Shown: one piece after another, positions 1 through 10,698 of the stretch
How positions within the stretch are numbered: the first letter of the stretch is position 1
How the letters are laid out: each line of letters starts with the position of its first letter
DNA from: Candidatus Latescibacterota bacterium
GTDB lineage: Bacteria; Latescibacterota; MVCY01
NCBI GenBank assembly: GCA_030640765.1
Contig: DAOWIT010000120.1
Span: 1 to 10,698, forward strand
Direction: 5' to 3'
DNA: 10,698 nucleotides
Program-made: the position numbers and the translations under genes
The notes under the pieces: model-generated
Seen by the model: only the letters and a program-made list of their open reading frames with translations
What the model was told of the DNA's origin: nothing
Databases searched by the model: none

Positions 1-941
1 ATTACATAAAGAACATGATCACCGGGGCCGCTCAGATGGATGGTGCCATTTTGGTGGTTTCGGCCGCTGATGGACCTATGCCACAAACTAGGGAACACAT
101 ATTGTTAGCCCGGCAAGTGGCAGTTCCGGCTATCGTAGTTTTCCTGAACAAGACCGATCAGGTAGACGACCCAGAGTTATTAGACCTGGTGGAGTTGGAA
201 GTCAGGGAACTGCTCAGTGAGTACGATTTCCCAGGTGACGAGGTGCCAGTGCTGAAAGGCTCGGCTACTGAAATCCTGGCCTGTGGGTGTGGCAAGGAAG
301 ATTGTCCGAAGTGTGGGATAATCCATGAACTGATGGAGGCTGTGGATACCTACATACCCACCCCCATGCGGGATGTAGATAAGCCATTCCTTATGCCTGT
401 AGAGGATGTGTTCAGTATTACAGGCAGAGGGACCGTTGGAACCGGCAGGGTCGAGAGAGGAAGAATAAAAGTTGGGGATGATGTGGAAGTAGTTGGGGTT
501 AAACCGACCAGGAAGACAGTCGTTACCGGAGTGGAGATGTTCCGTAAGCTGTTGGATGAGGCTCAGGCCGGCGATAATGTGGGTTTATTGTTGCGGGGAG
601 TAGAGAAAGAGGAACTAGAGCGAGGGATGGTAGTAGCCAAACCGGGCAGCATCACGCCACACAAGAGATTCAAAGCGGAGGTTTACGTGCTGACCAAAGA
701 GGAAGGTGGACGACATACCCCCTTCTTCAACGGCTATCGCCCTCAGTTTTACTTCCGAACTACCGATGTGACCGGAGAGGTTCGTCTGCCCGAAGGAGTG
801 GAGATGGTTATGCCTGGTGACCATGTGAAGATGGATGTGACCCTGATTACATCGATAGCAATGGAGAAAGAGCTTAGATTCGCCATACGAGAGGGAGGTA
901 GCACTGTCGGAGCTGGTGTCGTAGGTGAGGTGACAGAGTAA
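1..941 (+). CDS. tuf: Elongation factor Tu, 5'-truncated by window edge
   Basis: EF-Tu delivers aminoacyl-tRNA to the ribosomal A site as a GTP complex. The open frame is entered at base 3 and encodes 312 residues. It begins [15 protein letters not shown], just after the G3 (DxxGH) box, near E. coli residue 88, so P-loop and switch regions lie upstream of the window. The G4 box reads NKTD (usually NKCD or NKVD) and the G5 region GSATEIL where SAL is usual. Domain 2 ([13 protein letters not shown]) and domain 3 ([24 protein letters not shown], then the C-terminal VGAGVV) are intact. A cysteine cluster, [11 protein letters not shown], sits just after G5, where E. coli has an acidic/alanine segment. 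The stop TAA at 939-941 directly abuts the rpmG ATG, implying co-translation. The identification is secure; the ATG at base 15 is internal and not the gene start. Confidence 0.98.
927..933 (+). promoter_or_regulatory. Ribosome binding site of rpmG
   Basis: GAGGTGA, a seven-base match to the anti-Shine-Dalgarno complement, lies inside the last codons of tuf and ends 8 nt before the rpmG ATG. It supports the start of this short gene directly against the tuf stop codon. Confidence 0.8.
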
Positions 942-1091
942 ATGAGAGAATTGGTAACCTTGGCCTGCGGAGAATGTAAGAGACGAAATTATACTACCAC
1001 TAAAAACCGTCAACTTCATCCTGACAGGATTCAGCAGAAGAAATATTGCCCTTCTTGTAGAAAACACACCTTACATAAAGAGACCAGGTAA
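942..1091 (+). CDS. rpmG: 50S ribosomal protein bL33
   Basis: This 49-residue protein begins [20 protein letters not shown] and ends HKETR. It carries two CxxC pairs (C9/C12 and C36/C39), the zinc-ribbon form of bL33, a small protein of the large subunit near the E site. Length is normal for the family. The start is fixed by GAGGTGA 8 nt upstream, and the ATG follows the tuf TAA with zero spacing. The position between tuf and secE is a common bacterial arrangement. Retention of all four cysteines suggests the zinc-dependent version; a cysteine-free paralogue elsewhere in the genome is possible but cannot be seen here. Confidence 0.96.
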
Positions 1092-1098
1092 AATGCAC

Positions 1099-1175
1099 AG
1101 GCCTGTAGCTCTAACGGATAGAGCATCGGACTCCAAATCCGAGGGTTGGGGGTTCGAATCCCTCCAGGCCTGCCA
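1099..1175 (+). tRNA. trnW: tRNA-Trp (anticodon CCA)
   Basis: A full cloverleaf can be drawn by hand. The acceptor stem AGGCCTG/CAGGCCT is 7 perfect pairs. The D-stem is GCTC/GAGC. The anticodon stem TCGGA/TCCGA encloses the loop CTCCAAA with anticodon CCA at 1133-1135. The variable loop is 5 nt, and the T-arm GGGGG-TTCGAAT-CCCTC contains one G-T wobble. The discriminator is G, and CCA is encoded at 1173-1175. The anticodon reads UGG. All Trp codons in the neighbouring genes are TGG, and nothing in this tRNA suggests UGA decoding. It lies 7 nt after rpmG and 21 nt before secE, so it is probably processed out of the same transcript. Confidence 0.97.
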
Positions 1176-1196
1176 TTATTATCTAAGGGTATAGAA

Positions 1197-1382
1197 ATGT
1201 TAAAAAAAACCATTACCTTCCTAAAAGAGGTAAGATTAGAAATGGGGAAGGTGAATTGGCCTACAAGGGATGAACTGTTCGCCTCAACTTGGGTAGTACT
1301 GCTCTTTTCTGTGATAGTTGCCCTGGGAGTTTGGGCATTTGATTTATTCTTCTCGAGAGTCCTGAGAATTATATTAGGATAG
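1197..1382 (+). CDS. secE: Preprotein translocase subunit SecE
   Basis: SecE is the small clamp subunit that stabilises SecY in the SecYEG membrane channel. The 61-residue product is the minimal single-span form. A short amphipathic N-terminal helix (FLKEVRLEMGKV) is followed by the family signature NWPTRDEL near residues 20-27. One transmembrane segment then runs over about residues 31-53 (STWVVLLFSVIVALGVWAFD). The ATG at 1197 is chosen because AAGGGT (1185-1190) lies 6 nt upstream. The longer open frame from 1146 starts inside the tRNA gene and is not credible. The stop TAG is 12 nt before the nusG ATG. The secE-nusG pairing is almost universal in bacteria and confirms both calls. Confidence 0.96.
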   Translation: MLKKTITFLKEVRLEMGKVNWPTRDELFASTWVVLLFSVIVALGVWAFDLFFSRVLRIILG

Positions 1383-1394
1383 GTGAGATACCGT

Positions 1395-3140: not shown

Positions 3141-3665
3141 ATGACAAGAGAAGAGAAACAAAAAGAGGTTGCTTACTTATCGGAGCTGTTTTCCTCTTCT
3201 AAGGGAATATATCTGACTGACTTTACTGGTTTAAATGTAGAGTTACTTACCAGTTTAAGGCGCAAGCTCAGGGACTGTTCTATTTCATACCGTGTAGTTA
3301 AGAACACCTTGGCGGCTCAGGCGGCTAAACAAGCAGGCCTGGATGAGTTGATGGAATTCATAGAAGGCCCTACGGCGTTAGCTTACACCGATGGTGATCC
3401 AGTGATGCCGGCAAGGGTTATCTCTGAATTTCTGGAAGAGGGGCAGCGTCCGCGTTTTAGGAGTGCCTCAATAGAGGGTCAACTATATACTGCAGAACAA
3501 GTGGCCACACTTGCTACCCTACCCTCTAAGGAGGAGTTGCTGAGTGAAATTTTCTGGGGAATTAGTTCACCTATTGGTGGTTTAGTAACATCTCTTCAGT
3601 CGATTCTACGAACCTTGGTAACTACCCTTGATGTAATAGCTAAGCAGAGAGAACAAGAGACTTAA
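3141..3665 (+). CDS. rplJ: 50S ribosomal protein uL10
   Basis: L10 anchors L7/L12 dimers to the ribosome. The 174-residue protein has the rRNA-binding N-terminal domain ([20 protein letters not shown], then [20 protein letters not shown]) and [14 protein letters not shown] in the middle. It ends in a long helix from about residue 135 ([20 protein letters not shown]) that should bind L12 dimers. The ATG at 3141 has only a weak AGAG upstream, so translation probably depends on coupling to rplA, whose stop is 8 nt before. An L10 leader of the type found upstream of rplJ in E. coli cannot fit in that gap; the long untranslated stretch here lies after rplJ instead. Confidence 0.97.
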
Positions 3666-3759
3666 ATCTGGTAATCTTCTCTGGCAAGAGTGAGCAGTCC
3701 TCAATGAAGTAGCGGGTTGAAGTTCTGTAATTAGCGCCTATTTCGTCAACCAATTGTGC

Positions 3760-3813
3760 TGATGCATCGTTTTTTGGACCGTTGTCTTTGAGCGATGCAT
3801 TACTTTCTCAAAG
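3760..3813 (+). promoter_or_regulatory. Overlapping alternative hairpins in rplJ-rplL gap
   Basis: The 256-nt rplJ-rplL gap (3666-3921) has no supportable gene. Two stems can form, but they exclude each other or would knot. Stem A pairs ATGCATCG (3762-3769) with CGATGCAT (3793-3800), extended by a G-U and a U-A pair. Its 23-nt loop begins with six T and may hold a small inner GGAC/GTCT stem. Stem B pairs CTTTGAG (3786-3792) with CTCAAAG (3807-3813). Stem B uses the loop of A and encloses A's 3' arm, an arrangement resembling attenuators, riboswitches or an H-type pseudoknot. A further weak stem, CACTGT/ACGGTG, lies near 3847-3870. Function is inferred only; I see no convincing promoter in the gap. 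Confidence 0.4.
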
Positions 3814-3921: not shown

Positions 3922-4320
3922 ATGCCAGTAAAAAAAGGAACTAATGTGAAAACGATTGTGGACTCAATAAGCAAACTGACAGTCCTGGAGCTTGCAGAGT
4001 TAGTTGACGTGTTGCGGGAGAAGTTTGGAGTCCAAGCAGTTGCCCCGGTAGCGCAAACAGCAGCCCCTACCGCTGAGGCAGCAGAAGCTGCCCCTAAGGC
4101 GGAAGAGAAGACGGAATTTGATGTAATCTTGACCGGGATTGGGGACAAGAAAATTCAAGTGATCAAAGTGGCTAGAGCACTTACTTCTCTTGGATTAAAG
4201 GAAGCAAAGGCCCTGGTAGATTCTGCCCCTAAACCATTAAAAGAAGGGGTATCTAAGACAGAAGCTGAAGAGGCGAAGGCAAAACTGGAGGAAGTAGGGG
4301 CAACAGTAGAAATCAAATGA
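3922..4320 (+). CDS. rplL: 50S ribosomal protein bL12 (L7/L12)
   Basis: L12 is the multicopy stalk protein that recruits and stimulates translational GTPases. The 132-residue product has the three expected parts. The N-terminal dimerisation/L10-binding helices contain [20 protein letters not shown] (about residues 16-35). A flexible Ala/Pro/Glu hinge covers about 38-61. The C-terminal factor-binding domain starts [20 protein letters not shown] and contains [20 protein letters not shown]. It is somewhat longer than E. coli L12 (about 120). The TGA stop at 4318-4320 overlaps the rpoB ATG, so L12 and beta translation are probably coupled. Confidence 0.98.
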
Positions 4321-7300
4321 GGAGTGTGAGAGTCTTGAGCGAAGCAGGTTTTAGTCAACGTTATTATTACGGAAAGCTACCCACGGTTGTTGATATACCA
4401 GATCTGCTTGAAGTCCAGATTAATTCCTTTCGAGATTTCCTTCAGGGGGATGTTCCACCAGGGAAAAGGGCTCGACAGGGTATACAGGCTGTGTTTATGG
4501 ATATTTTCCCTATTACCGATGTGCATAATCTTTTTTCTCTGGAATTTTTGGGATATTCTATAGGCAAACCAAAATACAATATATTCGAATGCCAGGAGAG
4601 AAATCTGACCTATGCGGCTTCCTTAAAGGCCAGACTCAGATTAGACATCAGAGAACGGGGACAGATGCAGTTTAAGGAAGGGATCGAACAGACCGTTTTT
4701 CTAGGAGAACTGCCTCTGATGACGGATAAGGGTAGCTTCGTCATAAACGGCGCTGAGAGGGTTATCGTTGCTCAGCTTCATCGCTCCCCGGGGGTGTTCT
4801 TTGACGAAATCACCCACCCCAGCGGCAGAAGACTTTACTCTGCTCGTATTATTCCTTATCGAGGTTCATGGGTCTCTTTGAAGACAGATATCAACGATAT
4901 TCTCTATGTCTATATAGACCAGACAAAAAAAGTATATGTGACAGTGCTGCTTCGAGCGCTTGGATTTCTGGATGATGAGCAGATTCTGAATCTGTTTCGG
5001 GACAAAAAAGGGGTGGAACTGATCGAGAATACACTAAGCAAAGATCCCATCGACAACCAGGAAGAAGCCTGGTATGCCATATACAGCCTTATGCGCCCCG
5101 GCGAACCGCCGAATGTGCAGACAGCTCAAGAGTTCTTTAACAACCTGTTTTTCGACCCCAAACGCTACAATCTGGGTAAGGTGGGTAGATATAGAATCAA
5201 TCAACGTTTAGGGACAGATGTTCCTTCTGACACCACGGTGCTCACTCCTGAGGATTTTGTGAAGATTACAGAATATATGCTGGCCCTATACGAAGGGGAG
5301 GGCTACATTGACGATATTGATCACCTGGGAAATCGAAGGGTAAGGTTGGTAGAAGAATTGCTCAGTGAACAGCTTAATATAGCTTTTTCTCGGATGGCCA
5401 GGGTAATCCGGGAGAAGATAAATCTGCGTGGATCCGATTCCATAATCCCTCAAGAACTGGTCAATGCTCGTATTATATCCGCAGTAGTAGATTCTTTCTT
5501 TGGTTCCAGCCAGCTATCCCAGTTTATGGACCAGATGAACCCTCTGGCAGAACTGGATCACAAAAGGAGGCTCAGTGCCCTTGGGCCAGGAGGGCTTACC
5601 AGAAAAAGCGCTGGGTTCGAGGTAAGGGATGTTCATCATACTCATTATGGCAGAGTATGTCCCATCGAAACTCCTGAGGGACAAAATATCGGACTTATGG
5701 TCCGTCTGGCTACTTATGCTCGGGTTAACTCCTTTGGGTTTATTGAAACACCTTACCGGAGAGTTAAGAACGGTCGAGTAACTACTAAAATAGAGTATCT
5801 TACGGCCGACGAAGAGGATAGATACACTATTGCTCAAGCTAACGCTCCTTTGACTGAGGATGGGAGTTTTATTCTTGAGTTAGTCAGGTGCCGTAGACGA
5901 GGCGAATTTTCTCTTGTCCCTCCTTCTGAGATCGATTATATGGATGTTTCGCCTAAGCAAATGGTGGGAGGATCGGCTTCACTAATTCCATTTCTGGAAC
6001 ACGATGACGCCAGCCGTGCCCTGATGGGTTCCAACATGCAGCGTCAAGCAGTACCGTTATTGAAGACCGAATCTCCATTGGTGGGAACCGGAATGGAGCA
6101 CAAAATAGCTATTGACTCCAGAGCGGTAGTATTAGCACAACAGGCAGGCAAGGTAATCAGTGTTGATGCCGACAGAATTGTCATAAATCCCAAACAACCA
6201 ACCAACGAGCCTATCCGACTGTTGGGGATATCTAATTACCACACATATGATTTGATTAAATTCAAACGCTCTAACTCCGACAGTTGTGTTAACCAACGCC
6301 CTTTGGTAAAAGTGGGCGACAGGGTGAAGGCGGGGCAACTTATTGCTGACGGGCAGGCCACCAGTCAAGGCGAGCTTGCTCTGGGTGCTAATCTCCTGGT
6401 TGCCTTTATGCCTTGGGAGGGTTACAATTTCGAAGATGCTATTGTGGTGAATGAAAGGTTGGTTAAGGAGGACGTATTTACTTCTATTCATATTGTAGAA
6501 TTTGAGGTCCAGGTGCGGAGAACTAGACTGGGGCCAGAAGAGATAACCAGGGATATCCCTAATGTTGGCGAAGATATGGTGAAAGATTTGGACGAGAGAG
6601 GGATAATTCGAATTGGAGCGGAGGTAAAAGCTGGGGATATCTTGGTGGGAAAAGTGACACCCAAAGGTGAAACCGAGCTTTCTGCGGAGGAGAGATTGCT
6701 GAGAACCATCTTCGGCGAGAAAGCAGGAGAAGTACGCGACACCTCCCTGAAGGCCCCTCCGGGAATGGAAGGGGTGGTTGTGGATGCGAAGTTGTTTTCT
6801 CGTAAACACAGAGATGACAAGACGGGGAAAGAAGACAGGGAAAAAATCGCCTCCTTAAGAAACGATGACCAAAAGAGAATTGCAGAGATCAAAGCAGCAC
6901 GAGATAGAGAGGTGAAGCATCTTCTCCAGGGACAATGTTCAGGTCTTCTTCGAAATACTGAAGACGGCTCCGTAGTCTGTAAATCCGGAGAGATTCTGGG
7001 TGAAGCTGCTTTGGATCAGATTGACTTAGATGTTGTCCATCCAGATGATAAATGGGTTGAGGATAAGAACAACAATAGTAAGATTGAAAGCTTAATGAAA
7101 GCCAGTCAAGAACTAATCAGCTCTGTGGAAGACGAACTAAATCAGCAGATCGACACGGTAATCAGGGGAGAAGAGCTGCCGACAGGTATACTTCAACTGG
7201 TGAAGGTTTATGTAGCACAGAAGAGGAAATTAACCGTGGGAGACAAAATGTCAGGGCGTCACGGGAACAAAGGAGTGGTATCAAAGGTTGTTCCTGAAGG

Positions 7301-7928
7301 AGATATGCCTTATTTGCCAGATGGTACCCCGGTGGATATTATCCTCAATCCATTAGGAGTGCCTTCACGGATGAATCTGGGGCAGATCTTGGAGACCCAT
7401 CTGGGTTGGGCAGCGAAGCGCCTGGGTATCCATGTCTCTACGCCTGTTTTTGATGGGGCCTCTCTGGAAGAGATCGAACAGGCTTTGATCAAAGCTGTGC
7501 TTCCTAAAAATGGAAAAACGGTGTTGTATGATGGTAAAGCAGGGAAAAGGTTCAGTGAAGAGGTGACTGTGGGTTACATCTACATGATGAAACTTTCCCA
7601 TTTAGCGGAGGATAAAATCCATGCCCGATCAATTGGCCCGTATTCTTTGGTCACCCAGCAACCGCTTGGAGGGAAGGCCCAGTTCGGTGGACAACGCTTT
7701 GGAGAAATGGAGGTGTGGGCATTAGAGGCCTACGGAGCAGCTCATCTTCTTCAAGAAATGCTTACCGTTAAATCCGACGATGTGGAAGGAAGATCTCACA
7801 CTTACGAAGCGATTGTTAAAGGAGAGAATCTGCCTGACCCCAATATCCCCGAATCTTTTAGGGTATTAGTTAAAGAATTGCAGAGCCTTGCTCTCGACAT
7901 TCAATTTGAGAACGGGAAGAAGAAGTAG
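4317..7928 (+). CDS. rpoB: DNA-directed RNA polymerase subunit beta
   Basis: Beta forms one pincer of RNA polymerase and half of the active site. The 1203-residue frame is complete. The N-terminal protrusion and lobe show [23 protein letters not shown] sequence (here [10 protein letters not shown]) and [10 protein letters not shown]. The rifampicin-pocket segment starts at residue 396 ([11 protein letters not shown]) and leads to [17 protein letters not shown] and [22 protein letters not shown] contains E706/D707. [18 protein letters not shown] contains K969 and K977, equivalent to E. coli K1065 and K1073. A charged, probably helical insertion lies at about residues 829-960, at the place of E. 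coli insertion SI2. The C-terminus closes normally ([21 protein letters not shown]). ATG 4317 overlaps the rplL stop, but TTG 4335 is an alternative start. The TAG stop is the second to fourth base of a palindromic repeat. Confidence 0.98.
4319..4324 (+). promoter_or_regulatory. Shine-Dalgarno-like site near alternative rpoB starts
   Basis: GAGGAG begins inside the overlapping ATGA and sits 10 nt before an in-frame TTG at 4335 and 1 nt before an in-frame GTG at 4326. It does not serve the ATG at 4317. It leaves open that beta translation starts at TTG 4335, six codons later than annotated. Confidence 0.4.
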
Positions 7929-7963
7929 GGACAGAACATTGTTCTGTGTCCCTACAGTGCCCA
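7925..7963 (+). repeat. Palindromic intergenic repeat, copy 2 (rpoB-rpoC)
   Basis: This 39-nt copy matches copy 1 at 1938. The left arm GTAGGGACAGAACA is identical. The right arm is TGTTC-TG-TGTCCCTAC, in which two extra bases make a 2-nt bulge in an otherwise complete stem. The tail AGTGCCCA is identical. Orientation relative to the genes is the same as copy 1. The TAG stop codon of rpoB lies inside the left arm. There is no U-tract, so it is unlikely to be an intrinsic terminator, and the downstream rpoC needs read-through transcription. Conservation of the tail outside the stem argues for a copied element rather than two independent hairpins. Confidence 0.88.
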
Positions 7964-7981: not shown

Positions 7982-9850
7982 TTGAGTCCTACCGGGTTAA
8001 AGACAATGGATTTTGATGCCATCAAAGTGAAGATTGCTTCCCCGGATGCTATTCGTAGCTGGTCTCATGGCGAGATTACCCGGCCGGAGACTATCAATTA
8101 TCGTTCCTTTAAACCAGAGCGGGATGGGCTTTTCTGTGAGCGGATTTTTGGACCTGAAAAAGATTGGGAATGCCATTGTGGCAAATATAAACGCAGACGC
8201 TATGAAGGCGTAATCTGTGACAAATGTGGAGTGGAAGTGACACGCTCCAAAATACGCCGAGAGCGAATGGGCCATATTGAACTGGCGGTATCTGCAGCAC
8301 ATATATGGTTTGTCAAATCCATTCCCTCAAAGATTGGCTATTTGTTAGATATGTCTGTTCCCGAACTGGGAAAAATCATATATTATGATTCTTATGTAGT
8401 TATAGATCCTGGGGATGCTCCCGTGGAGAAAGGGAATTTACTCTCTGAGGATGAGGTGTTAGATCTGAGAGAAAAAGGATACACTTTCGACGCTGAAATA
8501 GGGGCCAATGCTCTGAACAGATTATTAGAGGAGATAAATATTGAGGACCTCTCAGCAGAACTTAGAACCCAGGTGAAGATAGAGACTTCTGCTCAAAGGA
8601 AGCAAGATTTGTTGAAAAGGTTGAGGGTTGTCGAGGGTTTTCGCCAGTCAGGAAATAGGCCTGAGTGGATGATCCTGAAGGTACTGCCAGTTCTGCCTCC
8701 CGACCTTAGACCGTTAATCCCTTTAGAGGGAGGCAGATTTGCCACTTCTGATTTGAATGATCTTTACCGGAGAGTGATAAACCGGAATAACCGATTGAAA
8801 AAGTTGATGCAAATTGGTGCTCCAGAGATAATTCTACGCAATGAGAAGAGAATGCTCCAGGAGGCAGTAGATGCCCTTTTGGATAATAGCCGTCGTTCCG
8901 CCACTACCCGGGCGGAGAGTAGAAGGGAGCTTAAGTCTCTCAGCGAGCTTATCAGGGGTAAACAAGGTAGATTCCGCCAAAATCTGCTGGGGAAGCGAGT
9001 CGACTATTCAGGCAGAGCAGTTATTGTAGTTGGTCCAGAGTTAAAGCTCTACCAGTGTGGTTTGCCCAAGGAGATGGCTTTGGAGCTATTTAAACCCTTT
9101 GTTATTAGACTATTGGTAAAAAGGGGCGTAGCACAGACGGTGAAGAGCGCCAAAAGGCTAATTGAGCGCAAAAGATCGGAGATCTGGGGCGCTCTGGAAG
9201 AAGTTATTCAGGACTGCTGTGTACTTCTCAATCGGGCTCCTACATTACACCGCCTTGGCATTCAGGCCTTCGAACCTGTGTTAGTGGAGGAAAAGGCGAT
9301 AAGGATTCATCCTTTGGTCTGCGCCGCTTTCAATGCCGATTTCGATGGTGATCAGATGGCAGTACATATTCCCTTGTCTATTGAGGCCCAGATTGAGGCT
9401 AGGGTGCTGATGCTTTCCTCTAAGAATGTCCTTTTGCCTGCTAATGGCAAGCCTGTCATTATTGATAAGCCTCAGGATATTGCTCTGGGATGCTACTATC
9501 TTACCAAGATAAAACCTGGCAGCCACGGAGAAGGAAAGATATTCTCCAATCCCAGAGAGCTTTTGTTTGCTCACGAACACGATAGGGTTGGACTCCATGC
9601 CAAAATCAAGGTCAGGATCGATGGTACCCTGATCGAAACAACCGCGGGCAGGATCATCTTCAATCAAATACTTCCCCAGGGGTTTGGTTTTGTGAACAAG
9701 CTGTTGGAGAAAAATCAACTCCAAGAGATAGCGACTTCTATCCATCAAAAGCTGGGAGCAACTCAGACGGTAGAATTCGTTGATAAACTGAAGGATTTAG
9801 GGTTCCATTATGCCACCCAAGCAGGTGCGACTTTTGGAATAGATGATTGA
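7982..9850 (+). CDS. rpoC: RNA polymerase beta' subunit, N-terminal part (ends at in-frame TGA)
   Basis: Beta' carries the catalytic magnesium site and the clamp. The 622-residue frame covers the N-terminal half. The zinc finger is C64-x-C66-x12-C79-xx-C82, in the context [20 protein letters not shown]. Clamp helices and a rudder/lid region follow, with [20 protein letters not shown] and [20 protein letters not shown]. The catalytic loop [12 protein letters not shown] has D453, D455 and D457. The frame then enters the rim-helix region and stops at TGA after [11 protein letters not shown] normal beta' continues here with a hydrophobic residue and VIPP/IIPP, and the DNA does exactly that in the same frame. 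So this is not a natural C-terminus for a single-chain beta'. The TTG start is supported by GAGGTGAT 6 nt upstream. Sequence quality up to the stop is unblemished. Confidence 0.95.
9848..9850 (+). other. In-frame TGA interrupting rpoC
   Basis: The codons read gat-gat-TGA-atc-att-ccc, giving GIDD-stop-IIPPEK. Homologues carry Met or Leu at the stop position (E. coli GIDDMVIP). No frame change occurs, so an indel is excluded. A one-base substitution from TTA (Leu) would be enough to create it. I find no good bacterial SECIS hairpin just downstream, and TGA ends rplK and rplL normally. Error, mutation, or a true subunit split cannot be separated from sequence alone. Confidence 0.9.

Positions 9851-10698
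<848 letters not shown>

Follow-up and report, generated by a model that had tools for sequence, protein, structure and literature searches.

The closest described systems to the locus treated here are the single-chain bacterial RpoC (family TIGR02386) and the RpoC1-RpoC2 pair of cyanobacteria and plastids, where the beta' subunit of RNA polymerase is carried by two consecutive open frames; the cyanobacterial subunit is described as naturally split (PMC10802570; profiles TIGR02387 and TIGR02388). Additionally, many pseudogenes with internal stops have been reported to arise at assembly, in a manner that depends on coverage (Cooley and Wright 2024, PMC11017572). The case that we describe, which is judged by sequence comparison, resembles those assembly-error "pseudogenes", in that a conserved gene of a draft genome contains a single internal stop that is lacking in near relatives.

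The window, that is, the whole stretch of DNA that was analysed (10,698 nucleotides), is an entire contig (C63) of a Latescibacterota draft genome (G000), whose assembly comprises 786,136 bases in 154 contigs and is 67.4% complete with 0.09% contamination. In a protein search, the nearest named relatives were Candidatus Latescibacteria (P0003 and P0004). A tRNA-Trp was found on the window, and the putative gene order, with most names assigned after the usual arrangement, is tuf (partial), rpmG, tRNA-Trp, secE, nusG, rplK, rplA, rplJ, rplL, rpoB and rpoC. The rpoC frame is closed by an in-frame TGA at codon 623, between the motifs GIDD and IIPPEK, and the same phase then stays open up to the end of the contig, about 850 bases further on. 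The features needed below are as follows.

4317 to 7928, forward strand: rpoB, an open frame of 1203 amino acids, with no insertion or deletion relative to the congeneric genome G004
7982 to 9850, forward strand: rpoC, N-terminal part of beta' including the TGA; 622 codons from a TTG start; Rpb1 domains 1 to 3; TIGR02386 positions 1 to 619
9848 to 9850, forward strand: the in-frame TGA, codon 623; aligned with Met644 of E. coli beta'; leucine in five congeneric copies
9851 to 10698, forward strand: rpoC, continuing without change of phase as far as the contig end; 282 codons; Rpb1 domains 4 and 5 (5 partial); TIGR02386 positions 622 to 896
9890 to 9892, forward strand: ATG, the first in-frame ATG, GTG or TTG past the stop, as read from the sequence; 13 codons lie between

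The pieces on either side of the TGA are both recognised as beta' by Pfam and NCBIfam. In the profile search, the N-terminal piece alone reaches 977.2 bits against TIGR02386 (cut-off, 963.5), and the C-terminal piece resumes where the first leaves off, which agrees with a sequence-only reading of this DNA, according to which the beta' frame hits a TGA between GIDD and IIPPEK and resumes in phase. In its domain order, its place after rpoB and its matches across the sequenced part, the gene is like any single-chain RpoC, from which it differs by a TGA found in this assembly only. The stop does not derive from a frame shift: neither rpoB nor rpoC of the window has an insertion or deletion relative to G004, and the 1100 bases around the TGA align without gaps with G003 (94% identity), G004 (93%) and G002 (84%), while the alignment with contig C124 of G001 (93%) has a single gap located away from the stop. 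Since these alignments have no gap at the stop, no insertion or deletion in the window brings the TGA into frame.

The rpoC frame is also broken by the end of the contig. Another contig of the same assembly (C137) carries a stop-free match to residues 922-1381 of the G004 protein (P0002), and the gap between the two contigs, judged against G004, amounts to 46 bases. A DNA query over the region of the TGA had a single match in the G000 assembly, and no second rpoC copy was found in this 67% complete assembly.

The stop is not shared with any of the relatives examined. A query of 366 residues spanning the TGA matched 60 of the 64 genomes of the phylum, G000 included, and the match covered codon 623 in 59 of them (G030 matches only beyond the codon). 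Stops inside these matches were observed in two genomes, G000 (TGA) and G001 (TAA, on C124), the latter being an out-of-frame reading beside a one-base deletion elsewhere in the gene; thus, among the 59 genomes covering the codon, a stop at codon 623 is found in G000 only. In a set of 111 other loci, which takes in E. coli and, for one genome, some duplicates, the equivalent of the codon is valine in 51, leucine in 37, methionine in 15, isoleucine in six, and alanine and phenylalanine in one each, but never a stop. The stop is absent from all four congeneric genomes; their five copies (two in G001, one each in G002, G003 and G004) all have leucine, including that of the closest congener, G003, with 96% protein identity across the 366-residue query. 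The sister genomes thus answer what the sequence-only reading had left to be looked up. Its guess at the original codon (TTA changed to TGA) fared less uniformly, as it fits the one congeneric copy that differs from TGA at a single base, while the other four differ at two.

A search with the 622-amino-acid piece, in a protein database clustered at 90% (the P0002 cluster holds 11 sequences), returned no close relative consisting of the N-terminal part only among the best 120 of 8000 scored sequences, the best match being 73% identical. One Latescibacterota beta' of 609 amino acids (P0160), labelled partial and lying on a contig of 3.8 Mb, ends in GVDDL, one residue past the equivalent of the TGA. 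Literature searches found nothing on an rpoC stop codon in Latescibacteria, and those on rpoC nonsense mutation and read-through returned nothing on the subject.

Purifying selection on rpoC downstream of the TGA is similar to that upstream. For the stretches that precede and follow the TGA, respectively, dN/dS comes to 0.018/0.182 (583 codons) and 0.023/0.241 (280 codons) against G004, 0.025/0.229 (219 codons) and 0.013/0.188 (280 codons) against G003, and 0.057/0.924 (583 codons) and 0.055/0.727 (280 codons) against G002. Additionally, the C-terminal part has no further stop, insertion or deletion, and judged by sequence the downstream part is not decaying. At the 185 positions that are at least 95% conserved in outgroup loci (residues 370-905), the window deviates at six, five of which also occur in two or more congeneric copies. 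The remaining deviation is private and falls on the final complete codon of the contig (10694-10696, residue 905), which reads methionine where the 110 other loci all have leucine; it is likely an error of the contig end, and it gives a hint, but no more than that, on the quality of this end.

Taken with the relatives, these observations indicate that the TGA is most likely not a feature of the beta' gene of the organism, and on present evidence rpoC should be annotated here neither as split nor as a pseudogene. We consider it probable that the TGA is an error of sequencing, amplification or assembly. A wrong base, or a local error of two bases, would have entered at one of these steps in a draft of low completeness, and the rpoC of the organism would be one unbroken gene for an ordinary single-chain beta'. 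The stop itself, its absence from the relatives examined and the similar selection on both sides are observed, whereas its technical rather than biological origin is what we infer. Three of the five assemblies of the genus have a broken rpoB or rpoC, and the sites and kinds of the breaks are all different. For instance, rpoC of G001 (C124, locus L164) is broken by a one-base deletion in a run of A at the equivalent of window position 9715, and rpoB of G002 (C28, locus L162) by a net deletion of 53 bases at the equivalent of 6604-6660. Different breaks at different places are the pattern that technical noise gives. By contrast, the two-base distance of four of the five congeneric copies speaks against the simplest form of such an error, because a single miscall would suffice only if a synonymous difference, such as the fifth copy shows, had come first. 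Adjacent pairs of mismatches relative to G003 are not strongly enriched (eight seen and 5.0 expected over 1509 bases). Furthermore, inspection by eye of the approximately 31.4 kb of G000 that relatives cover revealed no second broken coding frame, and thus the assembly is not visibly error-ridden; the lack of a further stop or indel in the C-terminal part also counts against an error. All in all, the earlier view that an error is the simplest explanation is supported, and the uninterrupted relatives leave an error or a private mutation.

A second contig with rpoC is present in G001 (C9, locus L165), which is 91% identical to the window over 909 amino acids and 81% over the last 366, and whose rpoC end lacks the residues specific to the genus. 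The two rpoC contigs of G001 perhaps represent two strains or a chimera.

A private mutation would mean that the TGA is a real nonsense allele, either of the sequenced cell or of a minor strain that contributed its allele to the consensus, and that the cells carrying it were dead, dying or provided with a second copy outside the bin. One mutation would be enough, as one congeneric copy is a single base away, and the undecayed downstream frame fits a very recent event. Nevertheless, rpoC is an essential gene, and because of this a lethal nonsense allele should not dominate the consensus; an unsuppressed allele is not expected to reach such a frequency, and the second copy that might rescue it is the one that was not found in the assembly. 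We therefore regard a private allele as unlikely.

It has also to be considered whether the TGA is real and translated, by leaky read-through or by a suppressor tRNA, giving a full-length beta'. UGA is generally the leakiest of the bacterial stops, and the downstream frame is kept under normal constraint. Moreover, the internal stop of prfB, the gene for RF2, is TAA instead of TGA in G000, which might alter the supply of RF2. However, TGA is an ordinary working stop in this genome: rplK and rplL, in the same window, end in TGA, and RF2 is present, with 513.9 bits for a cut-off of 370. None of the 11 tRNA genes found has the anticodon TCA, which is weak evidence in an assembly that is 67% complete. 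The folds of three stretches around the stop give no clear recoding structure (z of -1.67, a value equalled by 16 of 200 shuffles, and z of -0.25 and -0.41), G001 has the same TAA in prfB yet no TGA at codon 623 of rpoC, and the stop is common to none of the relatives examined. With so little in its favour, we judge read-through or suppression decidedly unlikely. The same TGA-terminated genes and the prfB score speak against a code in which TGA is reassigned and RF2 lost, and a TAG in the prfB match of G000 does not indicate loss of RF2 either, as it sits in another frame, upstream of the +1 frameshift site, where prfB is intact.

At this +1 frameshift site, the internal stop is TAA in G000 (C144, positions 341-1390, reverse strand; locus L130) and in G001 (C180; locus L132), and TGA in G003 and G004. 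The standard site has UGA (PMC13245932). RF1 could also terminate at TAA, and the autoregulation specific to RF2 would then be weaker.

More doubtful still and, in our opinion, highly improbable is a newly divided beta', made as two polypeptides of which the second would be restarted at ATG 9890. The natural split in cyanobacteria does indicate that a break at no great distance is compatible with a working enzyme, and the window has in common with RpoC1-RpoC2 that beta' lies in two consecutive open frames. Nevertheless, the alignments with the rpoC1 profiles run only as far as residues 552-554 and those with the rpoC2 profiles set in at 569-570, so that the TGA at 623 lies 53-71 residues downstream of the cyanobacterial break, in keeping with a previous estimate of about 55 residues. 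In addition, the junction lacks a start codon, and a restart at the first in-frame start would lose the IIPPEK segment. None of the 111 other loci has a stop here, and its absence from all relatives examined is a further difference from RpoC1-RpoC2.

A reading of codon 623 as selenocysteine, for which the TGA within an otherwise open frame is the sole suggestion, has a negligible probability and is ruled out as far as drafts allow, as searches of the five genomes of the genus (drafts, 57-90% complete) found no SelA, no SelB over the cut-off (best, 199.6 for 242.25 bits) and no tRNA-Sec over the cut-off (best, 46.7 for 47 bits). Hydrophobic residues occupy the position in the 111 loci. Eight of the 32 near-misses for tRNA-Sec were fetched and correspond to tRNA-Leu, tRNA-Trp and tRNA-Tyr, and the three of G000 are tRNA-Trp, tRNA-Leu and tRNA-Lys. 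Among 14 control genomes, one, two and five exceeded the cut-offs for SelA, SelB and tRNA-Sec, respectively.

Were the TGA real in the species, the function of an essential gene would hinge either on read-through or on the largest subunit of RNA polymerase being broken at a new point. That beta' consists here of two chains, with the break close to the rim helices, or is made by efficient read-through of UGA, is very unlikely; in that event the split point would be one that cyanobacteria do not use, and the read-through would possibly be tied to an altered control of RF2 through the TAA of prfB. The case also illustrates how a lone internal stop in a conserved gene may be judged when the genome is fragmentary, namely by its relatives, by selection on both sides, by the recoding machinery and by its position in the contig.

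A scan for further in-frame stops was made in 20 of the 154 contigs (106 kb) and in the window. Counting the TGA of rpoC, 28 stops had at least 80 open codons on both sides, and Pfam searches with the pieces around five of these 28 revealed no family cut by the stop, a weak result, as at least one side matched no family each time. The comparison with relatives was made with 39.8 kb of G000 sequence (four contigs, of which C144 was not covered). When open reading frames of the relatives were compared by tblastn, 40 matches had internal stops in the G000 sequence, and 42 did so in the reverse direction. By eye, the matches outside rpoC and the break in rpoC of G001 were antisense or off-frame shadows, or lay before start codons. 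An apparent change of frame on C137 proved on checking to be a shadow frame, which runs across an insertion in the intergenic space of two ribosomal-protein genes, both of them open.

Some minor observations concern repeats and the insertion just mentioned. The TGA is centred in a short palindrome (positions 9843-9855, ATGATTGAATCAT); short inverted repeats are able to promote local errors. A self-complementary repeat (GTAGGGACAGAACAATGTTCTGTCCCTAC and a near copy) is found at positions 1938-1966, in the gap between nusG and rplK, and at 7925-7947, in that between rpoB and rpoC; it is possibly a small mobile or regulatory palindrome. Finally, the insertion on C137 (locus L166, approximately 3573-3762) amounts to roughly 170-180 extra bases relative to G004 and separates two genes for ribosomal proteins downstream of rpoC, presumably rpsL and rpsG, the frames of both being open.
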